The translations under genes were made by a program, and so were the position numbers. This document shows positions 1,035 through 10,841 of a DNA stretch of 32,552 nucleotides, one piece after another. The notes under the pieces were generated by a model, which was given only the letters and a program-made list of their open reading frames with translations, did no database searches and was not told the DNA's origin. The stretch covers positions 1-32,552 of the forward strand of contig JAQUWX010000003.1 of the NCBI GenBank assembly GCA_028692635.1, read 5' to 3'. Positions within the stretch are counted from its first letter, which is position 1. Each line of letters opens with the position of its first letter. This DNA is from Alphaproteobacteria bacterium. GTDB taxonomy: Bacteria; Pseudomonadota; Alphaproteobacteria; UBA9219.

Positions 1035-2078
1035 CTAACAAATTCTTGGCAACTGTTCCCCGGCGAGCCAATCGACTATGCGGCGGCCTCCCAAAGTCGT
1101 GCGCATTTCGACGAAATTGCGCTTATCCTCCACCACATTGCCTATGATAGACGATTCAGCTCCATGTTCATGCGAACGCATGGCTTCCAGCAGCTTCTGA
1201 GCATCTTTAGCAGCGCAAAAAGCGATAAGCCGCCCCTCGTTGGCGATATATAGAGGATCAAGCCCCAGAACCTCGCTAGCGCTTTTTACAGACAGGCGAA
1301 TGGGAATGTCTTTTTCCTCGAGGCGAATCCCAACATTGGCAGCATCGGCCATCTCATTAAGCGCAGTCGCAAGCCCTCCCCTCGTAGGATCGCGCATAGC
1401 GTGTATATCGACTTTTGACGCAATCATGCGCTCAACAAGTCCGTTAAGCGGAGCGCTGTCAGAAATTATTTCCGTATCGAATGACAGACTCTCGCGCTTC
1501 GACATTATAGCTACGCCGTGATCTCCAATAGGGCCGCTTACAAGAACGGCGTCTCCGGCTTTTATCCTTTTGACCGATATATCTATGCCATCCGGTATTA
1601 TGCCTATGCCGGAGGTATTGATGAAAACTCCGTCAGCTTTGCCTCTTTCGACCACCTTGGTGTCGCCGGTAACGACAGAAACTCCGCATTTTCTCGCAGC
1701 CTCGGCCATGGATTGCGCTATCAGCAAAAGCTGAGAAAGTTCAAATCCCTCCTCAATTATAAATCCCGCGGACAACCACAACGGCTCTGCTCCCGACATA
1801 GATACATCGTTTACAGTTCCATGCACCGCAAGACTGCCAATATCTCCGCCAGGAAAGAACAGAGGAGACACGACGAAGCTGTCAGTGCTGAACGCCACGC
1901 AGCCCTTGGGGAGAGATAGCCGCGCCTGATCGTTACCTTCGGCCAAGGCGGGATTGTCAAAAGAAGCCGCAAAAACGCTGTCTATCAACTGAGCCATAGC
2001 GCGTCCGCCGCTGCCATGAGTCATGTCAACCCGTCCGTTACGTAAATCAAGTTTTTGCCTGAATTTTTTATCCGTCAT
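1035..2078 (-). CDS. hypE: HypE, carbamoyl dehydratase / cyanide donor for [NiFe]-hydrogenase
   Basis: HypE receives a carbamoyl group from HypF on its C-terminal cysteine, dehydrates it with ATP to thiocyanate, and passes cyanide to iron on the HypC-HypD complex. This protein ends in the diagnostic PRIC tail, so the catalytic terminal Cys is intact. It has the PurM/AIR-synthase-like layout, with the glycine-rich MTHGSGG near residues 19-25, FSTDSFVV near 64-71 and VVTGDTKVV in the middle. I chose the ATG at 2078 (MTDKKFRQKL), giving 347 residues. It lines up with the family, lies inside the end of hypD (11-base overlap) and follows a purine-rich GAAGAAAAA. An in-frame ATG at 2093 would add five residues. 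The reading frame stays open further upstream, but that stretch lies in hypD and does not look like HypE. The next gene downstream is rnd. Confidence 0.96.
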   Translation of the reverse strand: MTDKKFRQKLDLRNGRVDMTHGSGGRAMAQLIDSVFAASFDNPALAEGNDQARLSLPKGCVAFSTDSFVVSPLFFPGGDIGSLAVHGTVNDVSMSGAEPLWLSAGFIIEEGFELSQLLLIAQSMAEAARKCGVSVVTGDTKVVERGKADGVFINTSGIGIIPDGIDISVKRIKAGDAVLVSGPIGDHGVAIMSKRESLSFDTEIISDSAPLNGLVERMIASKVDIHAMRDPTRGGLATALNEMADAANVGIRLEEKDIPIRLSVKSASEVLGLDPLYIANEGRLIAFCAAKDAQKLLEAMRSHEHGAESSIIGNVVEDKRNFVEMRTTLGGRRIVDWLAGEQLPRIC

Positions 2079-3192
2079 CGCTTTTTCTTCCATAGCTGTA
2101 CCATGCGGCGCACCCACCCTCTGACGACACCATGCACGAACCGATTGGATTTTCAGGAGTGCACGCCTTGCCAAACAAAGGACATTGAGCGGGAGTCTTC
2201 GCGCCTCTTAAAATGGCAGGACACTGGCAGGCCGGATTTTCCCTGCTTTTTACCGGATCAATTTTAAACCTGCGCTCGGCGTCATATTGCGCGTACTCTT
2301 CGCGCAAACGTAAAGCGCTGTTGGGAATGAAGCCCAAGCCTCGCCATTCGAAAGTGTCTCGCAGATCGAAGACTTCATTCGTTATTTTCTGCGCTTTCAC
2401 GTTGCCTTCTCTGGTCACCGCCCGAGTGTATTCGTTTTCCACCTCTGCTCGCCCGGAATTAACCTGACGGATCAGCATCAAGATAGATTGCATGACATCC
2501 AGCGGTTCAAACCCGGCAATAACAACCGGCTTGCCATACTTACTAGCTGCTATTTCATATGGAGCGGTTCCTATGACCGCGCTCACATGCGCAGGACCGA
2601 CAAAGCCGTCGATAGGAGGAACGTCGCTGTCGTTCTTCCCGGATTCAAGCAACCATCCAAACGCGGACGGAGTAAGAACGTGATTGCAAAACACGCTAAA
2701 ATTGGAAAGCCCCATCTTCTGCGCCTGTTTAATAACAACCGCGGTCGGAGGGGTAGTAGTCTCAAACCCTATTGCGAAAAAGATTACCTGCTTATCGGGA
2801 TTTTCCACAGCCATCTGAATAGCATCGAACGGAGCGGTTATCATTCTCACATCCGCTCCTGCTGCTCTGGCTTTAAGCAGGCTCATGCGATTGCTTCCCG
2901 GCACGCGCAACATATCGCCATACGAGCATAAAACCACGCCAGGGATTTTCGCAAGCTGTATAGCCGCATCTATCCGAGCAATAGGCAGAACGCACACGGG
3001 ACAGCCCGGACCGTGGATCATCCTAACATTTTCAGGAAGCAAATCCGGTATTCCAAACCGAAAGATAGCGTGAGTATGCCCCCCGCAGAATTCCATAAAT
3101 CTATAAACGCGGTTCTTGTCTGCCTCAGCCTTAATCGAGCAGGACAAAGATTGAGCTAAAGAGCGATTTCGAAATTCCTCTATGTACTTCAC
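2068..3192 (-). CDS. hypD: HypD, Fe-S scaffold for Fe(CN)2CO assembly
   Basis: HypD, with HypC, holds the iron ion on which the two cyanides and one CO of the [NiFe] active site are assembled. The 374-residue length is normal for the family. The key motifs are present: C36 followed by HTH (residues 39-41) in FCGGHTH, GPGCPVC with C64 and C67, and GFETT in the middle. A Cys-rich C-terminal third (CQCP, AQCPLF, GKACTP, GSCMV, GGCAAWY) provides the [4Fe-4S] ligands. The start codon is GTG at 3192, and it overlaps the hypC stop as GTGA. This overlap implies translational coupling, which fits the tight HypC-HypD complex. The 3' end overlaps the start of hypE. Confidence 0.97.
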   Translation of the reverse strand: MKYIEEFRNRSLAQSLSCSIKAEADKNRVYRFMEFCGGHTHAIFRFGIPDLLPENVRMIHGPGCPVCVLPIARIDAAIQLAKIPGVVLCSYGDMLRVPGSNRMSLLKARAAGADVRMITAPFDAIQMAVENPDKQVIFFAIGFETTTPPTAVVIKQAQKMGLSNFSVFCNHVLTPSAFGWLLESGKNDSDVPPIDGFVGPAHVSAVIGTAPYEIAASKYGKPVVIAGFEPLDVMQSILMLIRQVNSGRAEVENEYTRAVTREGNVKAQKITNEVFDLRDTFEWRGLGFIPNSALRLREEYAQYDAERRFKIDPVKSRENPACQCPAILRGAKTPAQCPLFGKACTPENPIGSCMVSSEGGCAAWYSYGRKSDDG

Positions 3193-3437
3193 GGCAACCT
3201 CGAGGCGGCTTCGCGTCTTCCTGCTTCATTCATTTCCGCGAACAGAGCCAGCGTCTTTTCCGCCTCTTTCGGATCGAGCCGAGACAAAGCATATCCAACG
3301 TGAACGATCACATAATCCCCTACCGCTACGCCTTCCACCAGAGCCAGCGATATTTTTCTGCCAATTCCACCGACATCAGCTATGGCCATATCATCGTCGA
3401 TCACTTTCGTAATCATTGCCGGAATAGCAAGACACAT
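3189..3437 (-). CDS. hypC: HypC/HupF, hydrogenase maturation chaperone
   Basis: HypC is the small chaperone that carries iron with its CN/CO ligands together with HypD and then docks on the immature hydrogenase large subunit. The 82-residue protein starts with the signature MCLAIP, which contains the essential Cys2. It continues with the OB-fold core and the typical GDYVIVHVGYALSRLD segment. The ATG at 3437 is preceded by an AGGAAA-type ribosome binding site about 6 bases upstream. It follows the hypF-like gene after a 14-base gap and overlaps hypD by four bases. Nothing looks truncated. Confidence 0.97.
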   Translation of the reverse strand: MCLAIPAMITKVIDDDMAIADVGGIGRKISLALVEGVAVGDYVIVHVGYALSRLDPKEAEKTLALFAEMNEAGRREAASRLP

Positions 3438-3451
3438 TTTTTATTTTCCTT

Positions 3452-4555
3452 TTACCTATCCAATAAAAGCGCAGCAGCCCACGCCTGCCCCAGGCTGACA
3501 GAAGAGTCCCCCGGAGGCAACTCCCTGGAACACAGAGGCGTTATTCCCAACGATATTATTTGCCGACAAAGGTTATCACGCAAAACTTTGTTTAGGAAAC
3601 ACCCTCCCCCAAGCGCTACTTTGCGTATGCCTGTCTTTGCGGCAGCTTCCTCTATCCATGCAGCCAAAGCCGCAGCGAACGTGCCATGGAATAATTCCGC
3701 GCCATCCTGCGCTGGCATATCCGCGATCTTATCCAAAAGCGGAATTAAATCTAAAATTCCGTCATCATCTATATCCCAACCGTCCGGCATTACCTTTATA
3801 TCTCGCACCATGGCCTCTAACGCCATCGGAGCTTCGCCTTCGAATGAGGCCACGGGTTTTACTCCCAACAATCCGCAAGCGGCATCGAATAAACGCCCTG
3901 CGCTGGTCGTCGAAGGGCAATTCACTTTTCCGTCCAGCATGGCTCTCAAAAGGCGAGCCTGGGGGAACTCTTTGTAACGGTCGGCTATATCGTCGCCACG
4001 CCCCAAAGCCCACAGAGCAGCCGCTCCCATGCGCCAGGGTTGAATCGCAGCTATGTCTCCGCCCGGCTGCAAAAAAGAACGCAGGTGGCCGATACGCTGA
4101 AACCCATCCCGATCCACTCGCAAAAGCTCTCCGCCCCAGGATTCGTTATTTAGCCCCAGGCCAAAGCCATCCAGAGCCACTCCAAGGACAGGTTCATCAA
4201 TCCCATGCTCGGCCATAACTGCGGCAACGTGAGCATGATGGTGCTGTATTTCCAACGGCTTAATGCCGCTATTTAAAGCAAAATGTGTGCTGGCAAAGTC
4301 CGGGTGAAGATCATGAGCTATGGCAATAGGAGAAACTCCCGCCAGAGAAATCATTTCATGAGCAGTTCGCTCATAATTTTCAACCGCCGCGACATTGTCC
4401 AGCGATCCGTTATCGCGAGATACCCATGCTTCCTTTCCCTTAATGATGCAAAGCGTATTTTTCAAAAACGCCCCTGCGCCCATAACCGGGACCATCTCGC
4501 GAGGGAGATTTATAACGGCAGATACCAAAGAATTATTATCGTTTGTTTTTATCAT
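3452..4555 (-). CDS. hypF: HypF, C-terminal Kae1-like carbamoyltransferase domain only
   Basis: Full-length HypF is about 750 residues. It has an acylphosphatase domain, a zinc-finger region, a YrdC-like domain that makes carbamoyl-adenylate, and a Kae1-like domain that carbamoylates HypE. This gene encodes only the last part, 367 residues from the ATG at 4555 (MIKTNDNNSL). The Kae1-like metal site QHHHAH is at residues 104-109, followed by GVALDGFGLG, WGGELL and, near the end, GGGCFLNKVL and SSVSLGQAW. No KxR/SxxxN YrdC signature or CxxC zinc-finger pairs precede it. Upstream DNA is hypB, which overlaps by 20 bases, so no N-terminal domain is hidden nearby. As I recall, Cupriavidus necator HypF1 is a functional shortened HypF of similar size, so this form may work. 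The earlier steps would need another protein. Confidence 0.9.
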   Translation of the reverse strand: MIKTNDNNSLVSAVINLPREMVPVMGAGAFLKNTLCIIKGKEAWVSRDNGSLDNVAAVENYERTAHEMISLAGVSPIAIAHDLHPDFASTHFALNSGIKPLEIQHHHAHVAAVMAEHGIDEPVLGVALDGFGLGLNNESWGGELLRVDRDGFQRIGHLRSFLQPGGDIAAIQPWRMGAAALWALGRGDDIADRYKEFPQARLLRAMLDGKVNCPSTTSAGRLFDAACGLLGVKPVASFEGEAPMALEAMVRDIKVMPDGWDIDDDGILDLIPLLDKIADMPAQDGAELFHGTFAAALAAWIEEAAAKTGIRKVALGGGCFLNKVLRDNLCRQIISLGITPLCSRELPPGDSSVSLGQAWAAALLLDR

Positions 4556-5291
4556 GGCCAGATTCCAACCAGCTAATCCACTCTGGCATGCCCTTGCCTG
4601 ACAACGAAGATAAGGAGATCGTCTCAATCGCAGGATTTATCTTGCGAGCATTTGCTATACAGCGATCGACATCGAACGGCACATACGGCAACAGATCGGT
4701 TTTCGTAATCAGCATCAAACGAGCGGCTTGAAACATATCGGGATACTTCAGGGGTTTGTCATCGCCTTCGGTCACGGACAAAAGCACAACCTTGGCAGCT
4801 TCCCCCAGATCGAACGCAGCCGGACAAACCAGATTGCCCACGTTCTCAATGAACAGCACGCTGTCATCAGGAGCGCCAAGATCATCAAGCGCATGACCGA
4901 CCATGTGCGCGTCAAGATGGCATCCACGACCTGTATTTATCTGCACTGTTTTAATTCCTGCTTTTCTTAGGCGTTCCGCATCGATATCCGTGCTTTGATC
5001 TCCTTCGATCACAGATGCAGGAAAGCGAATTTCAGAAACCGTTTTCGACAAAAGCGTAGTTTTCCCCGACCCGGGACTGGACACCAGATTCAAGGCCAAT
5101 ATGTTGCGCTTTAAAAAGACATGGCGATTGGCAGCCGCATAACGGTTATTCACCGCAAGAATATCTTCCTCAATTTTTATAGTCCGCTCATGCCCCTCTC
5201 CCGGAGCATGAACCGCGCCGATAGGATGATGATGGTGATGCTCATGATCGTTCTCATCAAGCCCCAATCCGCAACCGCAAGAAATGCACAT
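4536..5291 (-). CDS. hypB: HypB, nickel-binding GTPase for hydrogenase maturation
   Basis: HypB is a SIMIBI-class GTPase that works with HypA to insert nickel into the hydrogenase large subunit. The 251-residue protein begins with MCISCGCG, matching the CxxCGC high-affinity nickel motif of proteobacterial HypB. A short His-rich stretch (HEHHHHH) follows, with possible nickel storage. The P-loop SSPGSGKTTLL, the switch-region EGDQSTDIDAERL, the metal-site GRGCHLDAHM, ENVGNLVCP and the base-specificity TKTDLL are all present. The ATG at 5291 sits six bases after a strong GGAGGAATAAA ribosome binding site that contains the stop of the preceding CYTH gene, so the two are translationally coupled. 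Its partner HypA is encoded just upstream and is abnormal (see that entry). Confidence 0.97.
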   Translation of the reverse strand: MCISCGCGLGLDENDHEHHHHHPIGAVHAPGEGHERTIKIEEDILAVNNRYAAANRHVFLKRNILALNLVSSPGSGKTTLLSKTVSEIRFPASVIEGDQSTDIDAERLRKAGIKTVQINTGRGCHLDAHMVGHALDDLGAPDDSVLFIENVGNLVCPAAFDLGEAAKVVLLSVTEGDDKPLKYPDMFQAARLMLITKTDLLPYVPFDVDRCIANARKINPAIETISLSSLSGKGMPEWISWLESGHDKNKR

Positions 5292-5292
5292 T

Positions 5293-5811
5293 TTATTCCT
5301 CCGCTTTCAAGGCAAGATCCACATACGCGCCTTCAATTAATTGATTGTTCGATATGCCCAGCTTTGACAGAATATCATTTGCGGTCTTTATCCCGCTTTC
5401 AGCAGTCTCGGTGTCCGACAAAACCACCTCGAGTTCGAGAAAGTCTCCCAATCCTTCAACTTTATCCAAGTGTATTCTGGTATTGCCGCACATATAAAGA
5501 GTTCGGCGCTTTACAACTTTACCCAAAATTCCGCAGGACGAGGCCAATACATCACCCAGCGCACGCGGCGAGGAAGTTTCATAGATTGTGTAAATGCATT
5601 CCTTGGGTCCGCTTTTATTCGGGCGACTATAAGAAATCAACTGGCCCTCAGCTTCAGAAAACATCCGCAGCTTTAATCGCCCGCTTGAGCAAAAGAAAAA
5701 CGTGTCGTCCTGAAAAATTTCCTGCGGTTGGCTATCCGCGATTTTCTCAACCGCAGGCAAAAGAGCGCCGATACTGCCTATCTTCGCTTTTATCTCTATA
5801 TTCCTGCCCAT
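5293..5811 (-). CDS. CYTH-domain protein, class IV adenylate cyclase-like
   Basis: The protein of about 172 residues belongs to the CYTH superfamily of triphosphate-tunnel enzymes, which includes CyaB adenylate cyclases and thiamine-triphosphatases. It starts with GRNIEIKAK, the form of the ExExK motif seen in many CyaB-like proteins, with Asn at the first acidic position. It continues with alternating charged strands (RLKLRMF, KRRTLYM, RIHLDKVEGLG, FLELEVVL) and ends with LIEGAYVDLAL, typical of the cyclase-like group. The start is either the ATG at 5811, which overlaps the hypA stop as TGATG, or the GTG one codon upstream. It lies between hypA and hypB with no gaps, so it should be made together with the hydrogenase maturation proteins. 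Family membership is clear. Its substrate and any role in maturation are unknown, and the replaced acidic residue leaves catalysis open. Confidence 0.87.
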   Translation of the reverse strand: MGRNIEIKAKIGSIGALLPAVEKIADSQPQEIFQDDTFFFCSSGRLKLRMFSEAEGQLISYSRPNKSGPKECIYTIYETSSPRALGDVLASSCGILGKVVKRRTLYMCGNTRIHLDKVEGLGDFLELEVVLSDTETAESGIKTANDILSKLGISNNQLIEGAYVDLALKAEE

Positions 5812-6053
5812 CACGCCACGTCCATTTCAACGACCCTAAGCGCGACGCCGTGAGATTGTATGAATTCCAGTTCTGCATCTTGAGCTATCGTGTCTTTTGC
5901 TACCATGGGAAAACAAAAGCGCATCGACTCTTCACTTGCGCCGGAGACTTCTCCGATCTCTATCTTGATTTTGCGCACAACGCCAAAATTGTCGCGCTTA
6001 GCTTGCTCTTGCGCTATTCGCACGATGCTTTCGCATAACGACACTTCATGCAT
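5811..6053 (-). CDS. hypA: HypA-like nickel chaperone lacking the zinc-ribbon domain
   Basis: HypA binds nickel at its N-terminus (Met1-His2-Glu3) and passes it, with HypB, to the hydrogenase large subunit. Normal HypA has about 115 residues, with two CxxC pairs forming a zinc ribbon. This protein has 80. Residues 1-67 follow HypA closely: MHEVSLCESI, KIKIEIGEVSG, then SMRFCFP. The sequence then jumps from AELEFIQ directly to GVALRVVEMDVA, the normal C-terminal strand, skipping the roughly 38-residue zinc-ribbon segment. Its only cysteines are C7 and C47, and no CxxC remains. The gene overlaps the protease gene by 8 bases and the CYTH gene by one, so no lost exon-like piece or frameshifted zinc finger is hidden beside it. 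The clean in-frame deletion, rather than decay, suggests a working variant. Confidence 0.88.
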   Translation of the reverse strand: MHEVSLCESIVRIAQEQAKRDNFGVVRKIKIEIGEVSGASEESMRFCFPMVAKDTIAQDAELEFIQSHGVALRVVEMDVA

Positions 6054-6507
6054 TTATAAAATCCTTGAGCACCATATCTTTAACCTCATGCATGGCCGCT
6101 TCAACTTCTGGAGACAGCGACGCCCCAAAAGAAAACTCTATGCCCTCGATGCCGTATATAATCAGGGATTTTGGCAGTCTTTTCATGGCTCGCGACATTT
6201 CCACCGCCTCTGAAAGGCCGAACAGATGGCTGGAATACCGGAAGGTCCCCGCTATAAGCCTATCCGCATTGGCGTCAAACCGCCTGAGCGTCCCAATCTT
6301 TGCCCCGGATTTCATGGCATCCACTATCACCGTAAGATCGGTATCGCGCCAAAGATCCATAAGCGATACGCCCTCTCCGCTGTGGTCCAGAACCTCCACA
6401 CTTAGGCGGCGCATATCCTCGTTATCGGCAAGAGCTTCCGCGACCATGGGGCCGACAGCATCGTCACCGCGATTGCGATTGCCGACTCCAAGGAAGAGAA
6501 ACCCCAT
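6046..6507 (-). CDS. [NiFe]-hydrogenase maturation protease (HyaD/HycI family)
   Basis: This endopeptidase removes the C-terminal tail of the hydrogenase large subunit after nickel insertion, locking the active site. The 153-residue protein has the family start FLFLGVGNRNRGDD. Its three expected metal-contact residues are D16, D63 (VIVDAMK) and H93 (SSHLFGL), matching positions 16, 62 and 93 of E. coli HybD. The ATG at 6507 lies two bases after the stop of the large-subunit gene, so the enzyme is made directly with its substrate. The 3' end overlaps hypA. I give no symbol because the protease gene name differs between hydrogenase groups. Confidence 0.95.
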   Translation of the reverse strand: MGFLFLGVGNRNRGDDAVGPMVAEALADNEDMRRLSVEVLDHSGEGVSLMDLWRDTDLTVIVDAMKSGAKIGTLRRFDANADRLIAGTFRYSSHLFGLSEAVEMSRAMKRLPKSLIIYGIEGIEFSFGASLSPEVEAAMHEVKDMVLKDFINA

Positions 6508-6509
6508 GA

Positions 6510-7829
6510 TTAATCCCTAATCACCGTCAGATTAAGGAAATGCGTAGAGCAGGATATACAGGGATCATAATTGCGAATGGTCTGCTCACAACGCCACTTA
6601 AGATCCTCGTCGTTAAGATGCAGGTTTTTCTCGACAACGCCCAAAAGATCGCGCTCAATCTGCGGCTGGTTCTGCGCCGTGGGAGGAACGATAGTCGCCG
6701 CCTTTACCAGCCCCTTGCCGTCAATGGTATAGCGATGGACGCATATGCCTCTGGGAGCTTCTGTGCAACCGTAACCTGTTCCTGCCGTTGGAGAAGCATC
6801 AACAAACGCCCTATCCGGCTCCTCGTATGCCTCGACCAAGCGCAATGCCTCCTCGCACGCATAGAGTGTCTCGATCATGCGAACCAGCAAGCTCTTGTAT
6901 GGATTGTTGCAAACAGCTCCCAGCCCGACTTCCTTTGCTACGGACTTTGATAAACTGGTAAGCTGGTTGAAGTTGTTGTTATACCGAGCGATAGGACCGG
7001 TAAGGTATGGTTTCTTGTCGGCCCTTGTATGACCATGAAGAGCGGTAGAATGCTCGATATGGCTTTCCTCGAAATAATCGAAAAACTTGTTTATTGGGAT
7101 GTCGATCCCGCGATTGCTTACGATGTTTCCTTCCATGATAGCGTATTCGTCCGGGTGGCGGAGCGAAACGCAATGATAGTCATATTCGTAATCCGGAAAA
7201 TTGAAAGTGCCAAACAACCGCGTGATGGCCACTGAAGCTTCGATCCCCCATTTTAACGGCTCGATCAAATGGTGGATTTCTTTTTTGCTTGGAATTTTAT
7301 AAAAGCCGCCGACGCGAGTGTTAATGGGATGTATGGCGCGTCCTCCGCCAATTATCTCAAGAATATCGTTGCCGATTTTCTTTAGCTTCAATGCGTTTTC
7401 CACTACAGCGGGGTTCGCCGCCGCAAGCTGCAAAGAATCCTGCAAACCAAGAAAATCCGGAGCATGCAGCATAGCAGCGTGCAGAACGTGGCTCTCGATC
7501 CATTCACCGCAGTACATAAGGCGACGCAAGTCGCGCAGTGGGCGAGTTATCCTTATTCCCAATATCTCTTCCATGGCATGCTCGGCCCCCATCAGATAGG
7601 CTATCGGGCAAATGCCACAGATGCGAGCCGTTATATCGGGAACCTCCAGATACATGCGATCGCGCAAGAAGGCTTCGAAAAAACGAGGCGGTTCGAAGAT
7701 GCGGAATTTTATCTCGCTCACCACGCCGTCGGTGACGCGAACGGTCAAAGCGCCCTCGCCCTCGACCCTCGACAGTTCATCGACTTTTATGGTGCGTGTG
7801 CCGGACGGCTGATTTGTATCGCCCATCAT
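6510..7829 (-). CDS. hydA: Group 3b [NiFe]-hydrogenase alpha (large, catalytic) subunit
   Basis: This subunit carries the Ni-Fe(CN)2CO site where H2 is split or formed. The two cysteine pairs that bind the metals are present: RICGICP (C71, C74) near the N-terminus and DPCISCSTH (C424, C427) near the C-terminus. After His430 the gene encodes a nine-residue tail (FLNLTVIRD), which the adjacent protease should remove. The starts at 7829 and 7826 (tandem ATG) follow AAGAAGGAAAT at a good spacing and come just after the small-subunit stop. A GTG further upstream would extend into that gene and is unlikely. The length of about 439 residues, the single RICGICP form and the neighbouring beta-gamma-delta genes fit the cytoplasmic bidirectional NADP-linked (sulfhydrogenase-like) group. 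The gene name follows Pyrococcus usage. Confidence 0.95.
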   Translation of the reverse strand: MMGDTNQPSGTRTIKVDELSRVEGEGALTVRVTDGVVSEIKFRIFEPPRFFEAFLRDRMYLEVPDITARICGICPIAYLMGAEHAMEEILGIRITRPLRDLRRLMYCGEWIESHVLHAAMLHAPDFLGLQDSLQLAAANPAVVENALKLKKIGNDILEIIGGGRAIHPINTRVGGFYKIPSKKEIHHLIEPLKWGIEASVAITRLFGTFNFPDYEYDYHCVSLRHPDEYAIMEGNIVSNRGIDIPINKFFDYFEESHIEHSTALHGHTRADKKPYLTGPIARYNNNFNQLTSLSKSVAKEVGLGAVCNNPYKSLLVRMIETLYACEEALRLVEAYEEPDRAFVDASPTAGTGYGCTEAPRGICVHRYTIDGKGLVKAATIVPPTAQNQPQIERDLLGVVEKNLHLNDEDLKWRCEQTIRNYDPCISCSTHFLNLTVIRD

Positions 7830-7830
7830 G

Positions 7831-8628
7831 TCAAATTTCCTTCTTCTTGCAATTTTCACTGGCCGTACGGAAAGCCTCGGCGTTGCCGTTGAAGTTGCGA
7901 TAGAAATCGCAAATGCGATCTTTATCCATTCCCATCTTCGACAATTGATCTGTCATGCTGGCAGTGTTTGGCGTCTCCATAGGACCGAAGCAACCAAAAC
8001 AACCGCGATCGTACGCAGGGCAAAGATTGCCGCAACCGGCATGAGTGACAGGCCCCAGACATGGAATGCCGCGAGAAACCATGACGCACACAGTTCCGCG
8101 ACGCTTACATTCAAAACACTGGCTATAGTGAGGAACATTCGGAGTCCGTCCGTTCAACAGAGCGTTGATTACTTCCAGCAACTGGAATTTATTGATCGGA
8201 CATCCGCGCAGCTCAAAATCGACCTTAACGTGATCCTGAATTGCCGTAGAAGTCTTCAGCACGTCCAGAAATTCAGGATGCTGGTAAACTGTGCGAGCAT
8301 ACTCATTTACATCGGCAAAATTGCGCAGGGCTTGAATTCCGCCCGCCGTAGCGCAAGCGCCAATTGTTATAAGTATCTTCGACTGATCGCGGATTTTCTT
8401 GATCCGCTCAACGTCATGAGGAGTTGTGATAGAACCCTCAACTAAAGAAAGATCGTAAGGCCCCTCGATCACCGCCCTCGTCGCTTCAAGGAAGTAGGCG
8501 ATCTCAATGGCTCCCGCCACAGCGAGAAGCTCATCCTCGCAATCGATAAGGCTCAACTGGCAGCCGTCACAGGAGGAAAATTTCCATACCGCAACCCGTG
8601 GCTTTGCCCTTTTGTTTTCTGATGTCAT
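7831..8628 (-). CDS. hydD: Group 3b [NiFe]-hydrogenase delta (small, Fe-S) subunit
   Basis: The small subunit relays electrons from the Ni-Fe site through three Fe-S clusters to the diaphorase part. The 265-residue protein has the proximal-cluster start SSCDGCQ (C20, C23), then GACATAGG and RGCPINK. The C-terminal cysteine-rich block ([40 protein letters not shown]) holds the other cluster ligands. No twin-arginine signal is present, so the enzyme stays in the cytoplasm, as expected for group 3. The ATG at 8628 has a strong AAGGAGC ribosome binding site overlapping the end of the gamma-subunit gene. The stop lies one base before the large-subunit start. Confidence 0.95.
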
Positions 8629-8631
8629 GGC

Positions 8632-9486
8632 TTAAAGCTCCTTAATTTTAAGGGCATCGACGATCTGATCGTAACGGAACACCGGACCATCGCGGCAAAC
8701 GAAGTCCGTCCCCCACTGACAGTGACCGCAAAGGCCGACGCCGCACTTCATATTGCGTTCCATGGACAGATATATCTGATTCAAAGGAACGCCCCTTCCC
8801 ACCAGAGACTTCGCGGAAAAGTGCATCATTATTTCCGGGCCGCAAACAAAGGCGACCGTGTTCGCAGCGTCAAGGTCAGCCGCATCTATCAGCTTGGTGA
8901 CCAAGCCGACATTGCCGCTCCAACTGCCGGTAGCTTTATCGACAGTGACCTGAACGTCCATATCTCCACGAGCGCGCCATTTTTCGATTTCCGCGGCGAA
9001 CAGAATATCCTCCGGCGTGCGAGCTCCATAAAGGATCGTGACTTTCTTGAATTTAGAACGATCGTTTATAGCGCTATAGATAGTAGGACGCACAGGCGCC
9101 AGCCCAACGCCTCCCGATATGATGGCGAGGCTTTTCCCCTCGGCCATGCTTACGGGCCAAGTCGTGCCGAATGGCCCCCGAACTCCGACAGTATCTCCGA
9201 CTTTTAGAGCGGCGATAGCCGCCGACACTTTTCCGACAGACCTTGTTGTGTGCACTATCGCGGATTTATCGGCAGGATTGCCGCTGATGCTGATAGGAAC
9301 CTCGCCAACGCCAAAAACATAAAGCATGTTGGACTGGCCGGGCAGAAACTGAACCGGTTGGCCATCCACAGGCTTTATCACCATGGTGAAGGTGTCGGAT
9401 AAATTCTGAACAACCTCTGTAACGCGGAACGGACGCGGACGCATCGGATCAGCTTCGGCTGCCTTTACATTTTTGCAATCACACAT
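8632..9486 (-). CDS. hydG: Hydrogenase gamma subunit, FAD/NAD(P)H-binding reductase
   Basis: This 284-residue flavoprotein exchanges electrons between NAD(P)H and the Fe-S chain of the hydrogenase. It has the ferredoxin-reductase fold: a beta-barrel FAD domain with EVPISISG where flavin contacts lie, then a nucleotide-binding domain with [10 protein letters not shown] and [11 protein letters not shown]. It ends with a [2Fe-2S] motif of dihydroorotate dehydrogenase electron-transfer type, with C248, C253, C256 and C264. It starts MCDCKN at 9486, directly after the beta-subunit stop. It resembles HydG of archaeal sulfhydrogenase and the anaerobic sulfite reductase B subunit. The position within a hydrogenase operon favours the former. 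Preference for NADP over NAD is inferred from the group, not read from the sequence. Confidence 0.93.
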
Positions 9487-10617
9487 TTAACCGACCCCTT
9501 TATCAGTTTTCTTTATCTCAGCGGCCTCTTCTGTAATATCGATGCCGACGGGGCACCAGGTAATACAACGTCCGCAACCAACGCACCCGGAAGTGCCAAA
9601 CTGATCTAGCCAGCTCGACAACTTATGAGTCATCCACTGGCGATAGCGGGAGAATCCTTCCTTGCGGATGCTTCCTCCATGGATATAGCTGAAATCGACA
9701 GAGAAGCATGAATCCCACAATCTCCACCGCTCAGCATGGTCGCCGCTTAAATCGGTTACATCTTCAACCGTGTTGCAGAAGCACGTCGGGCAAGCCATCG
9801 TGCAGTTACCGCAGCTGAGGCACCTTTTTGCGACTTCTGCCCAGCGCGGACTCTCAAGATTGCGCTTCAACAAGGAAGCAACTCCCGGGATCATGGCTCG
9901 GCCCATATGGCTGCGCGCATTTTCGACGACAGCCTTGGCGGCCCTGATGTCCTCGCCGACGGATTCGCGCTTCGGCAGTTTATTCAAAATGGCCTCGCCG
10001 CGTGCGCTGCCGACTTCGACCAGAAACTCATGTCGTTTTTTATCCAGCAATTCCGTAAGAGCAAGATCGTATCCCGCCCCCACATTCGGCCCTGTCTTCA
10101 TAGAGTCGCAGAAGCAAGTCTTTGCAGCCCTCGAGCAATTGACCGCCACGATAAACGCATTGGCGCGGCGAGCGCTATAACCAGAGTCCGCGTTGTCTCC
10201 GCTGTTAAGAACCTTGTCCTGAATTTGTATGGCGGCAAGCTCACATGCGCGCACGCCTATGAACGCGTAAGGAGGTTCTTTCTCTGTGCTCTCAACAATA
10301 CTGAAGCCATCCTTCTCGCGCTTGGCCTCTAAAACCTTTTGACGCGGAGGAAAGAGATACTTCTTCCAGCTTGTAGGGCCGACCACATACTCAAAATATG
10401 CGCCGCTGGTTCCATCGACCAAACGATATTTTCCGCCCTCCTGCTCATCGGACTTGCCGATGGGAAGATCCTCGGGAGAAGAGATCGGTTCATACACGAC
10501 AGCGCCATCACGCGCATGCGGACCGATGAGCTGGTACCCGTCTTTGGCCAGAGCGGCGAGAAGAGCCTTAAATCCGGCCTCGTCGAGCACGGCTTTTGTT
10601 GTTGTCTGAGTTATCAT
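9487..10617 (-). CDS. hydB: Hydrogenase beta subunit, 4Fe-4S dicluster protein
   Basis: The beta subunit is an electron-transfer protein bridging the hydrogenase and diaphorase halves. It resembles anaerobic sulfite reductase subunit A. Two ferredoxin-type motifs lie in the C-terminal third: [11 protein letters not shown] (C266, C269, C272, C276) and [11 protein letters not shown] (C345, C348, C351, C355). Further cysteines occur at KTCFCDS and PTCFCNT. I chose the ATG at 10617 ([10 protein letters not shown]), giving 376 residues and preceded by GGGG with a short A-rich spacer. Longer in-frame starts up to 10734 would add up to 39 residues rich in Phe/Arg/His that do not look like this family. 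This is the first gene of the hydrogenase operon, and its promoter should lie in 10618-10841. Confidence 0.92.
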
Positions 10618-10841
10618 GTTTTTTACCCCATATGCACCGAGATGGCGCACCATCGACTGAAAATTAGGAACTATCGCGAAGAAGATTATACGGCGGAAGG
10701 GATGATTAGTATTCTTTGAATCAGTAAAGAGCAATTTTAATCAAAAGGCAAACAAGTATATACGCCCTCGGCGCACGCAACCATCACATGAATACCAGCG
10801 CATTTCTATTTGTTTTAATTTACTTTTTGCGTTGCGGTATA
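10618..10841 (-). promoter_or_regulatory. Probable promoter region of the hydrogenase-hyp operon
   Basis: This 224-bp gap lies upstream of hydB and downstream of the glycosyltransferase gene. On the minus strand it holds a perfect TATAAT at 10690-10685, about 68 bases before the hydB start. No convincing -35 box lies 16-18 bases further upstream, so an activator may be required. I looked for an FNR/ANR box (TTGATnnnnATCAA) and a sigma-54 -24/-12 element and found neither convincingly. The call rests on position and the single hexamer. Confidence 0.35.

Follow-up and report, generated by a model that had tools for sequence, protein, structure and literature searches.

The main finding of this work is the identification of a natural HypA that lacks the zinc ribbon. 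The gene lies at positions 5811..6053, on the minus strand, of the window, that is, the whole stretch of 32,552 nucleotides of DNA from an uncultured alphaproteobacterium analysed here, and its ORF product has 80 residues (MHEVSLCESIVRIAQEQAKRDNFGVVRKIKIEIGEVSGASEESMRFCFPMVAKDTIAQDAELEFIQSHGVALRVVEMDVA), beginning with MHEVSLCE and ending with VALRVVEMDVA. Judged by its profile match, MHE motif, predicted fold and gene neighborhood, this protein is a variant of the HypA/HybF family (PF01155, TIGR00100), with which it also shares the C-terminal strand, but from which it differs in the absence of the domain carrying the two CxxC pairs and in its length of 80 residues, against about 113-118. Sequence, conservation and structure prediction together make it likely that the gene encodes a functional minimal HypA, consisting of the nickel-binding domain alone, in which the zinc ribbon was deleted in frame. 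According to a 2019 review, a nickel site and a zinc site are found in all HypA proteins (PMC7055735), and no description of a zinc-less HypA was found in the literature searched, the coverage of which did not extend to most subscription papers. What is new is thus the natural HypA without zinc ribbon as a variant, since some such proteins are already public under the HypA name. The zinc domain, present in every HypA according to reviews, seems to be dispensable in nature, because it was lost in relatives of the window genome and in other proteobacteria.

Comparison with the Pfam HypA profile PF01155 (cut-off 28.9 bits) gave 67.8 bits (1e-18) over profile positions 1-69 of 112. With TIGR00100 the score was 59.8 bits, below the full-length cut-off of 88.1, and only positions 1-64 of 116 were covered; across the NCBIfam HypA models, the protein covers just the first 63-74 positions and falls below the equivalog cut-off. 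The MHE nickel site occupies residues 1-3 and is encoded by the 5' end of the gene (6045..6053, minus strand), and none of M1, H2 and E3 varies, either among the aligned short forms or among the full-length HypAs listed with them. In an alignment of 62 HypAs, the missing segment corresponds to 34 columns, and the strands on either side of it, AELEF and the C-terminal LRVVEMDV, are both retained. Aligned with full-length HypA, the junction and C-terminal beta strand (SHGVALRVVEMDVA; 5814..5855, minus strand) lead the chain back into the sheet at the point where the zinc ribbon is gone. The original prediction, made from the DNA letters alone, described an HypA of 80 residues with the MHE site and the core fold in which the segment with both CxxC pairs is missing, and it quoted AELEFIQ as joined directly to the following residues. 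The alignment, the relatives and the structure prediction bear this description out, with a zinc ribbon that is precisely removed. The quotation, however, skips two residues (SH), and the real sequence reads AELEFIQSHGVALRVVEMDVA.

In ordinary HypA, the zinc ribbon is an insertion between two neighboring beta strands. The AF2 model of the short protein, for which six natural sequences served as input, has a pLDDT of 93.4 and predicts a helix at residues 2-21, a strand at 26-34, a second helix at 41-51 and strands at 61-67 and 72-79. The last two strands, which flank the zinc ribbon in ordinary HypA, are joined in the model by a short turn to form a direct beta hairpin. In the Foldseek comparison with the PDB, the best 14 matches were all HypA (probability 1.00), among them HypAB and HyhL-HypA complexes of T. 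kodakarensis; where the alignment is ungapped, 65-68 nickel-domain residues fit at about 1.4 Å. The best structural match of the nickel domain was the T. kodakarensis HypA (3a43, 5aun, 5yxy, 5yy0), which was solved with HypB and with the large subunit HyhL. The model therefore indicates that the normal fold of the HypA nickel domain is kept in the short form.

The protein contains no CxxC motif, and the zinc site of HypA/HybF is accordingly lacking. Moreover, no CxxC-x(8-40)-CxxC pattern occurs in any of the six frames of window positions 5001-7000, so that a displaced or frameshifted zinc finger can be dismissed. The gene is tightly packed on both sides: its start overlaps the hybD stop codon by 8 bases (ATGCATGA), and the TGATG at its other end combines its own stop codon with the start of the following gene. 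These overlaps had been taken earlier as excluding a hidden zinc finger, and the six-frame search leads to the same conclusion. The window genome (1.87 Mb, 98% complete, a draft assembly of 120 contigs) encodes one HypA as judged by the PF01155 search. The sole other match (C109, 16 bits) is below the cut-off and corresponds to the zinc-finger LID of an adenylate kinase, not to a second full HypA. The zinc ribbon might instead act in trans, as part of another subunit or as a small protein of its own, which would fit with the fact that HypF is here also domain-reduced, to half its length. Nevertheless, the stretch 5001-7000 holds no paired CxxC, and apart from the adenylate kinase no HypA-type zinc-ribbon match was found elsewhere in the genome, a search that a divergent rubredoxin-like protein could escape; we regard this explanation as very unlikely.

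As expected for a HypA/HybF protein, the gene is surrounded by hydrogenase and hyp genes, all on the minus strand. The operon comprises the hydrogenase, hybD and a complete hypABFCDE set in coupled genes. Directly upstream of hypA is a hydrogenase maturation protease of the HybD/HycI family (6046..6507; PF01750, TIGR00072), preceded by the four-gene set of group 3b. This consists of the large subunit of a group 3b-type [NiFe] hydrogenase (6510..7859), which is the presumed client of HypA and whose best families are NF040828 (3e-73) and NF040832 (5.5e-68) with scores under the equivalog cut-offs; a small subunit (7831..8628; PF01058, and NF040836 with a score under the equivalog cut-off); an HydG-like FAD/NAD(P)-binding diaphorase subunit (8632..9486), assigned from its operon position, homologues in relatives and the FAD/NAD(P)-binding annotation in orthologous plasmid operons; and an HydB-like iron-sulfur subunit (9487..10734), assigned from homologues in relatives and the 4Fe-4S dicluster annotation in orthologous operons. 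On the other side are hypB (4536..5291; TIGR00073, 2.1e-86), a nickel GTPase with CxxCGC and a His-rich N terminus that is the likely partner of the short HypA, followed by hypF (3452..4627), hypC (3189..3437; PF01455), hypD (2068..3192; PF01924) and hypE (1035..2174; TIGR02124), whose product ends in PRIC. Between hypA and hypB, in overlap with the end of hypA, lies the gene of a CYTH-domain protein (5293..5814; PF01928, 2e-17) that is similar to class IV adenylate cyclases. It is present in one of the 33 genomes of the order and, since it was found in no other of them, probably has no part in HypA function.

The hypF gene of the window encodes the Kae1-like carbamoyltransferase half alone (profile positions 381-740 of 741; TIGR00143, PF22521, PF17788). 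The other half, with the acylphosphatase, zinc-finger and YrdC parts, is absent from the window genome except for one TsaC/Sua5-type protein, so that HypA and HypF are both without their zinc-bearing parts here. Of the eight other family members searched, seven gave a HypF match, and in all seven, as in another alphaproteobacterial family, f24, HypF is likewise reduced to its C-terminal half. In f24, however, the half-length HypF occurs with a full-length HypA, so that the HypA loss and the HypF shortening are not one event. One f24 locus (L036, genome G184) has an in-frame TAA stop within hypA. For a single-domain hyp maturation protein there is a precedent in Cupriavidus necator, whose truncated HypF1, similar to the half-length HypF of the window, is believed to depend on an outside supply of carbamoyl adenylate (PMC9100943); this precedent concerns HypF and not HypA.

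The short form is conserved in the GTDB family of the window genome, the short HypAs of which are referred to here as clade I. Among 33 genomes of the order, HypA was found in nine, all from this family, and in all nine it is the short form, although in one of them (G017) the sequence enters Ns after the nickel domain. Loss of the zinc segment through a sequencing or assembly error could be suspected in a window taken from a 120-contig draft assembly, but the same in-frame form is present in eight other genomes of the family. An error is thus excluded for clade I, and we consider its probability practically negligible overall. Either an assembly error or a second complete hypA, together with a lack of conservation in relatives, had been put forward as grounds for rejecting the original prediction; neither applies, given the single HypA of the genome and the nine short forms among nine family HypAs. 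Three of the genomes with a short HypA (G009, G008 and G015) gave no HypB match at 1e-5, and G009 is 96% complete; HypB may have been lost in some clade I genomes too, or may fall in an assembly gap.

Among eight aligned family members, 22 of the 80 positions are invariant, M1, H2 and E3 included, and for the closest pair (L010/L011, from genomes G018 and G020) dN is 0.16 and dS about 1.5, a dN/dS of about 0.1, which indicates strong purifying selection on the short HypA. This bears on the possibility that what remains of HypA is a relic in decay, the nickel coming from HypB, from a different chaperone or from the free pool. High nickel is known to bypass partly the loss of HypA or HypB (PMC3287977; PMC12134894). 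H. pylori mutants with changes in the zinc-site Cys residues of HypA retain 9-60% of the wild-type hydrogenase activity (PMC5557546), and since activity is reduced in this way, the zinc site matters in that organism. Against decay stand the low dN/dS, the retention of the short HypA, its MHE invariant, by nine genomes of the window's family and by another clade (clade II, below), stop-free frames and a predicted fold of high confidence, and we find a remnant very improbable. With regard to the impaired H. pylori mutants, it may be that an altered zinc loop that is still present does harm that a clean excision does not.

The searches were all made within Pseudomonadota and covered, in addition to the order, a class-wide sample and a phylum sample of 399 genomes. 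In the class-wide sample, six more alphaproteobacterial genomes have as their sole HypA a short form of 87-89 residues and clearly distinct sequence, here called clade II, which overall ranges from 87 to 95 residues and extends over Alpha- and Betaproteobacteria. Plasmids of Burkholderia savannae, Pandoraea vervacti and Paraburkholderia carry relatives, another Pandoraea gave a match as well, and the Burkholderia and Pandoraea plasmid forms are annotated publicly as plain HypA (e.g., WP_059583950.1). Like the window protein, these HypAs have no zinc ribbon, keep the MHE and adjoin a group 3b operon, but they group apart from it, have a loop of about 6 additional residues (D-P-N-A type), and are accompanied by a full-length HypF in an operon without HypB. 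A third case, from a single genome, is the 80-residue HypA of G742, with the C-terminal sequence TFLIKEFEFGEIA, encoded just before hypB in a genome whose congener has a full-length HypA. In the phylum sample, HypA was detected in 99 of the 399 genomes, and besides the window and G742 only one N-terminal-only match was obtained (C85 of G433), which was rejected as a short HypA on the ground that the gene ends at a contig end. A clade II profile gave no new short forms in the 399 genomes, its matches being the first 62-68 positions of HypAs already found with PF01155. A check for the same deletion in other group 3b loci had been suggested earlier, and clade II provides such cases. The statement that no characterised HypA without the zinc site is known agrees with the literature searched, but the window protein is not unique, as clade II and G742 exist and some of these proteins are annotated as HypA.

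A HypA tree was inferred from 76 columns, with the zinc columns left out, and many of its forks are unresolved. In this tree, clade I (support 99/89) does not group with clade II (100/100), and the position of G742 is within full-length forms (99/98). The loss of the zinc ribbon was counted as three changes, two of which are forced by branches with good support, and a single clade of all short forms was not rejected (AU p = 0.18). Since clades I and II are separate and G742 lies among full-length HypAs, the tree suggests at least two losses of the zinc ribbon in Pseudomonadota, and probably three.

Clade II hypA genes are found in group 3b operons wherever the neighborhood is visible, and the same is true for most of clade I, which could point to the short form being an adaptation to a group 3b large subunit that needs no docking of the zinc domain. 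In the clade I genome G018, however, the short HypA precedes hypB-F-C-D-E and a group 1-type (HyaB-like) large subunit, with NF007550 as best model and only weak matches to the large subunit of the window (24-31% identity), and G742 has no match to that subunit. Conversely, T. kodakarensis pairs a full-length HypA with HyhL (5yxy and 5yy0, among the Foldseek matches), which we take to be a group 3b enzyme. The group 1-type hydrogenase of G018 shows that the short HypA has no fixed link to group 3b; in view of G018 and G742, specificity for group 3b is not supported as the reason for the loss, and we see little chance of its being correct.

We therefore favor a short HypA that works as a nickel chaperone by itself. 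The protein would accept nickel from HypB, use its N-terminal amine and the MHE motif to bind the metal, and pass the metal on to the immature large subunit, and it would do so without tuning of nickel affinity by a zinc site and without contacts of a zinc domain. The zinc ribbon of HypA forms a mobile unit of its own, which in H. pylori influences the affinity for nickel and reacts to pH (PMC7055735); the short HypA has the nickel domain and not this mobile unit. In the HypAB complex of T. kodakarensis, the high-affinity nickel site is completed by His98, which lies outside the N-terminal nickel domain (PMC7055735). Differently from that protein, the short form has neither the zinc domain nor an equivalent of His98; the place of the latter in the nickel site would have to be filled by water, a different side chain or a HypB residue.

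In the clade II operons that are fully in view, the order is hydB, a cyclic-nucleotide-binding protein, hydG, hydD, hydA, hybD, hypA, full-length hypF, hypC, hypD and hypE, with no hypB. No HypB above the cut-off was found in the six clade II genomes searched whole, where only weak matches were obtained (61-78 bits, against 121); four of the six (L108, L111, L112 and L113, but not L109 and L110) appear by eye to be UreG-like, with GPVGSGKT and TNDIYTKED. As HypB is lacking, nickel in clade II may come from UreG or from the free pool. The order hypAFCDE without hypB has been reported for Nitrosococcus oceani AFC132 and others, with UreG proposed as a stand-in, in passages that make no comment on the zinc domain of HypA (PMC7285500). 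More tentatively, and with a chance that we put somewhat under even, zinc-free HypA would represent a convergent minimal nickel chaperone across Pseudomonadota, and in clade II, without HypB, a single 87-residue protein would insert nickel, possibly together with UreG. If this is true, the zinc ribbon is a regulatory add-on that stands outside the nickel-delivery mechanism itself, and of the systems found here that insert nickel into a [NiFe] hydrogenase, clade II, without zinc ribbon and HypB, would be the simplest. Natural zinc-less HypAs make the role of the zinc site, whether structural, regulatory or in docking, directly testable; they show the minimum needs of nickel delivery and, as small proteins, lend themselves to structural studies and to the engineering of hydrogenase maturation.

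Two minor observations concern the clade II loci. A gene with a cyclic-nucleotide-binding domain lies inside the structural gene set of the group 3b operons at L084-L087, L098 and L099. In plasmid pPV15 of Pandoraea vervacti (L098 8161-8164), the large subunit matches in two pieces with no gene listed, which suggests a frameshift or a pseudogene.
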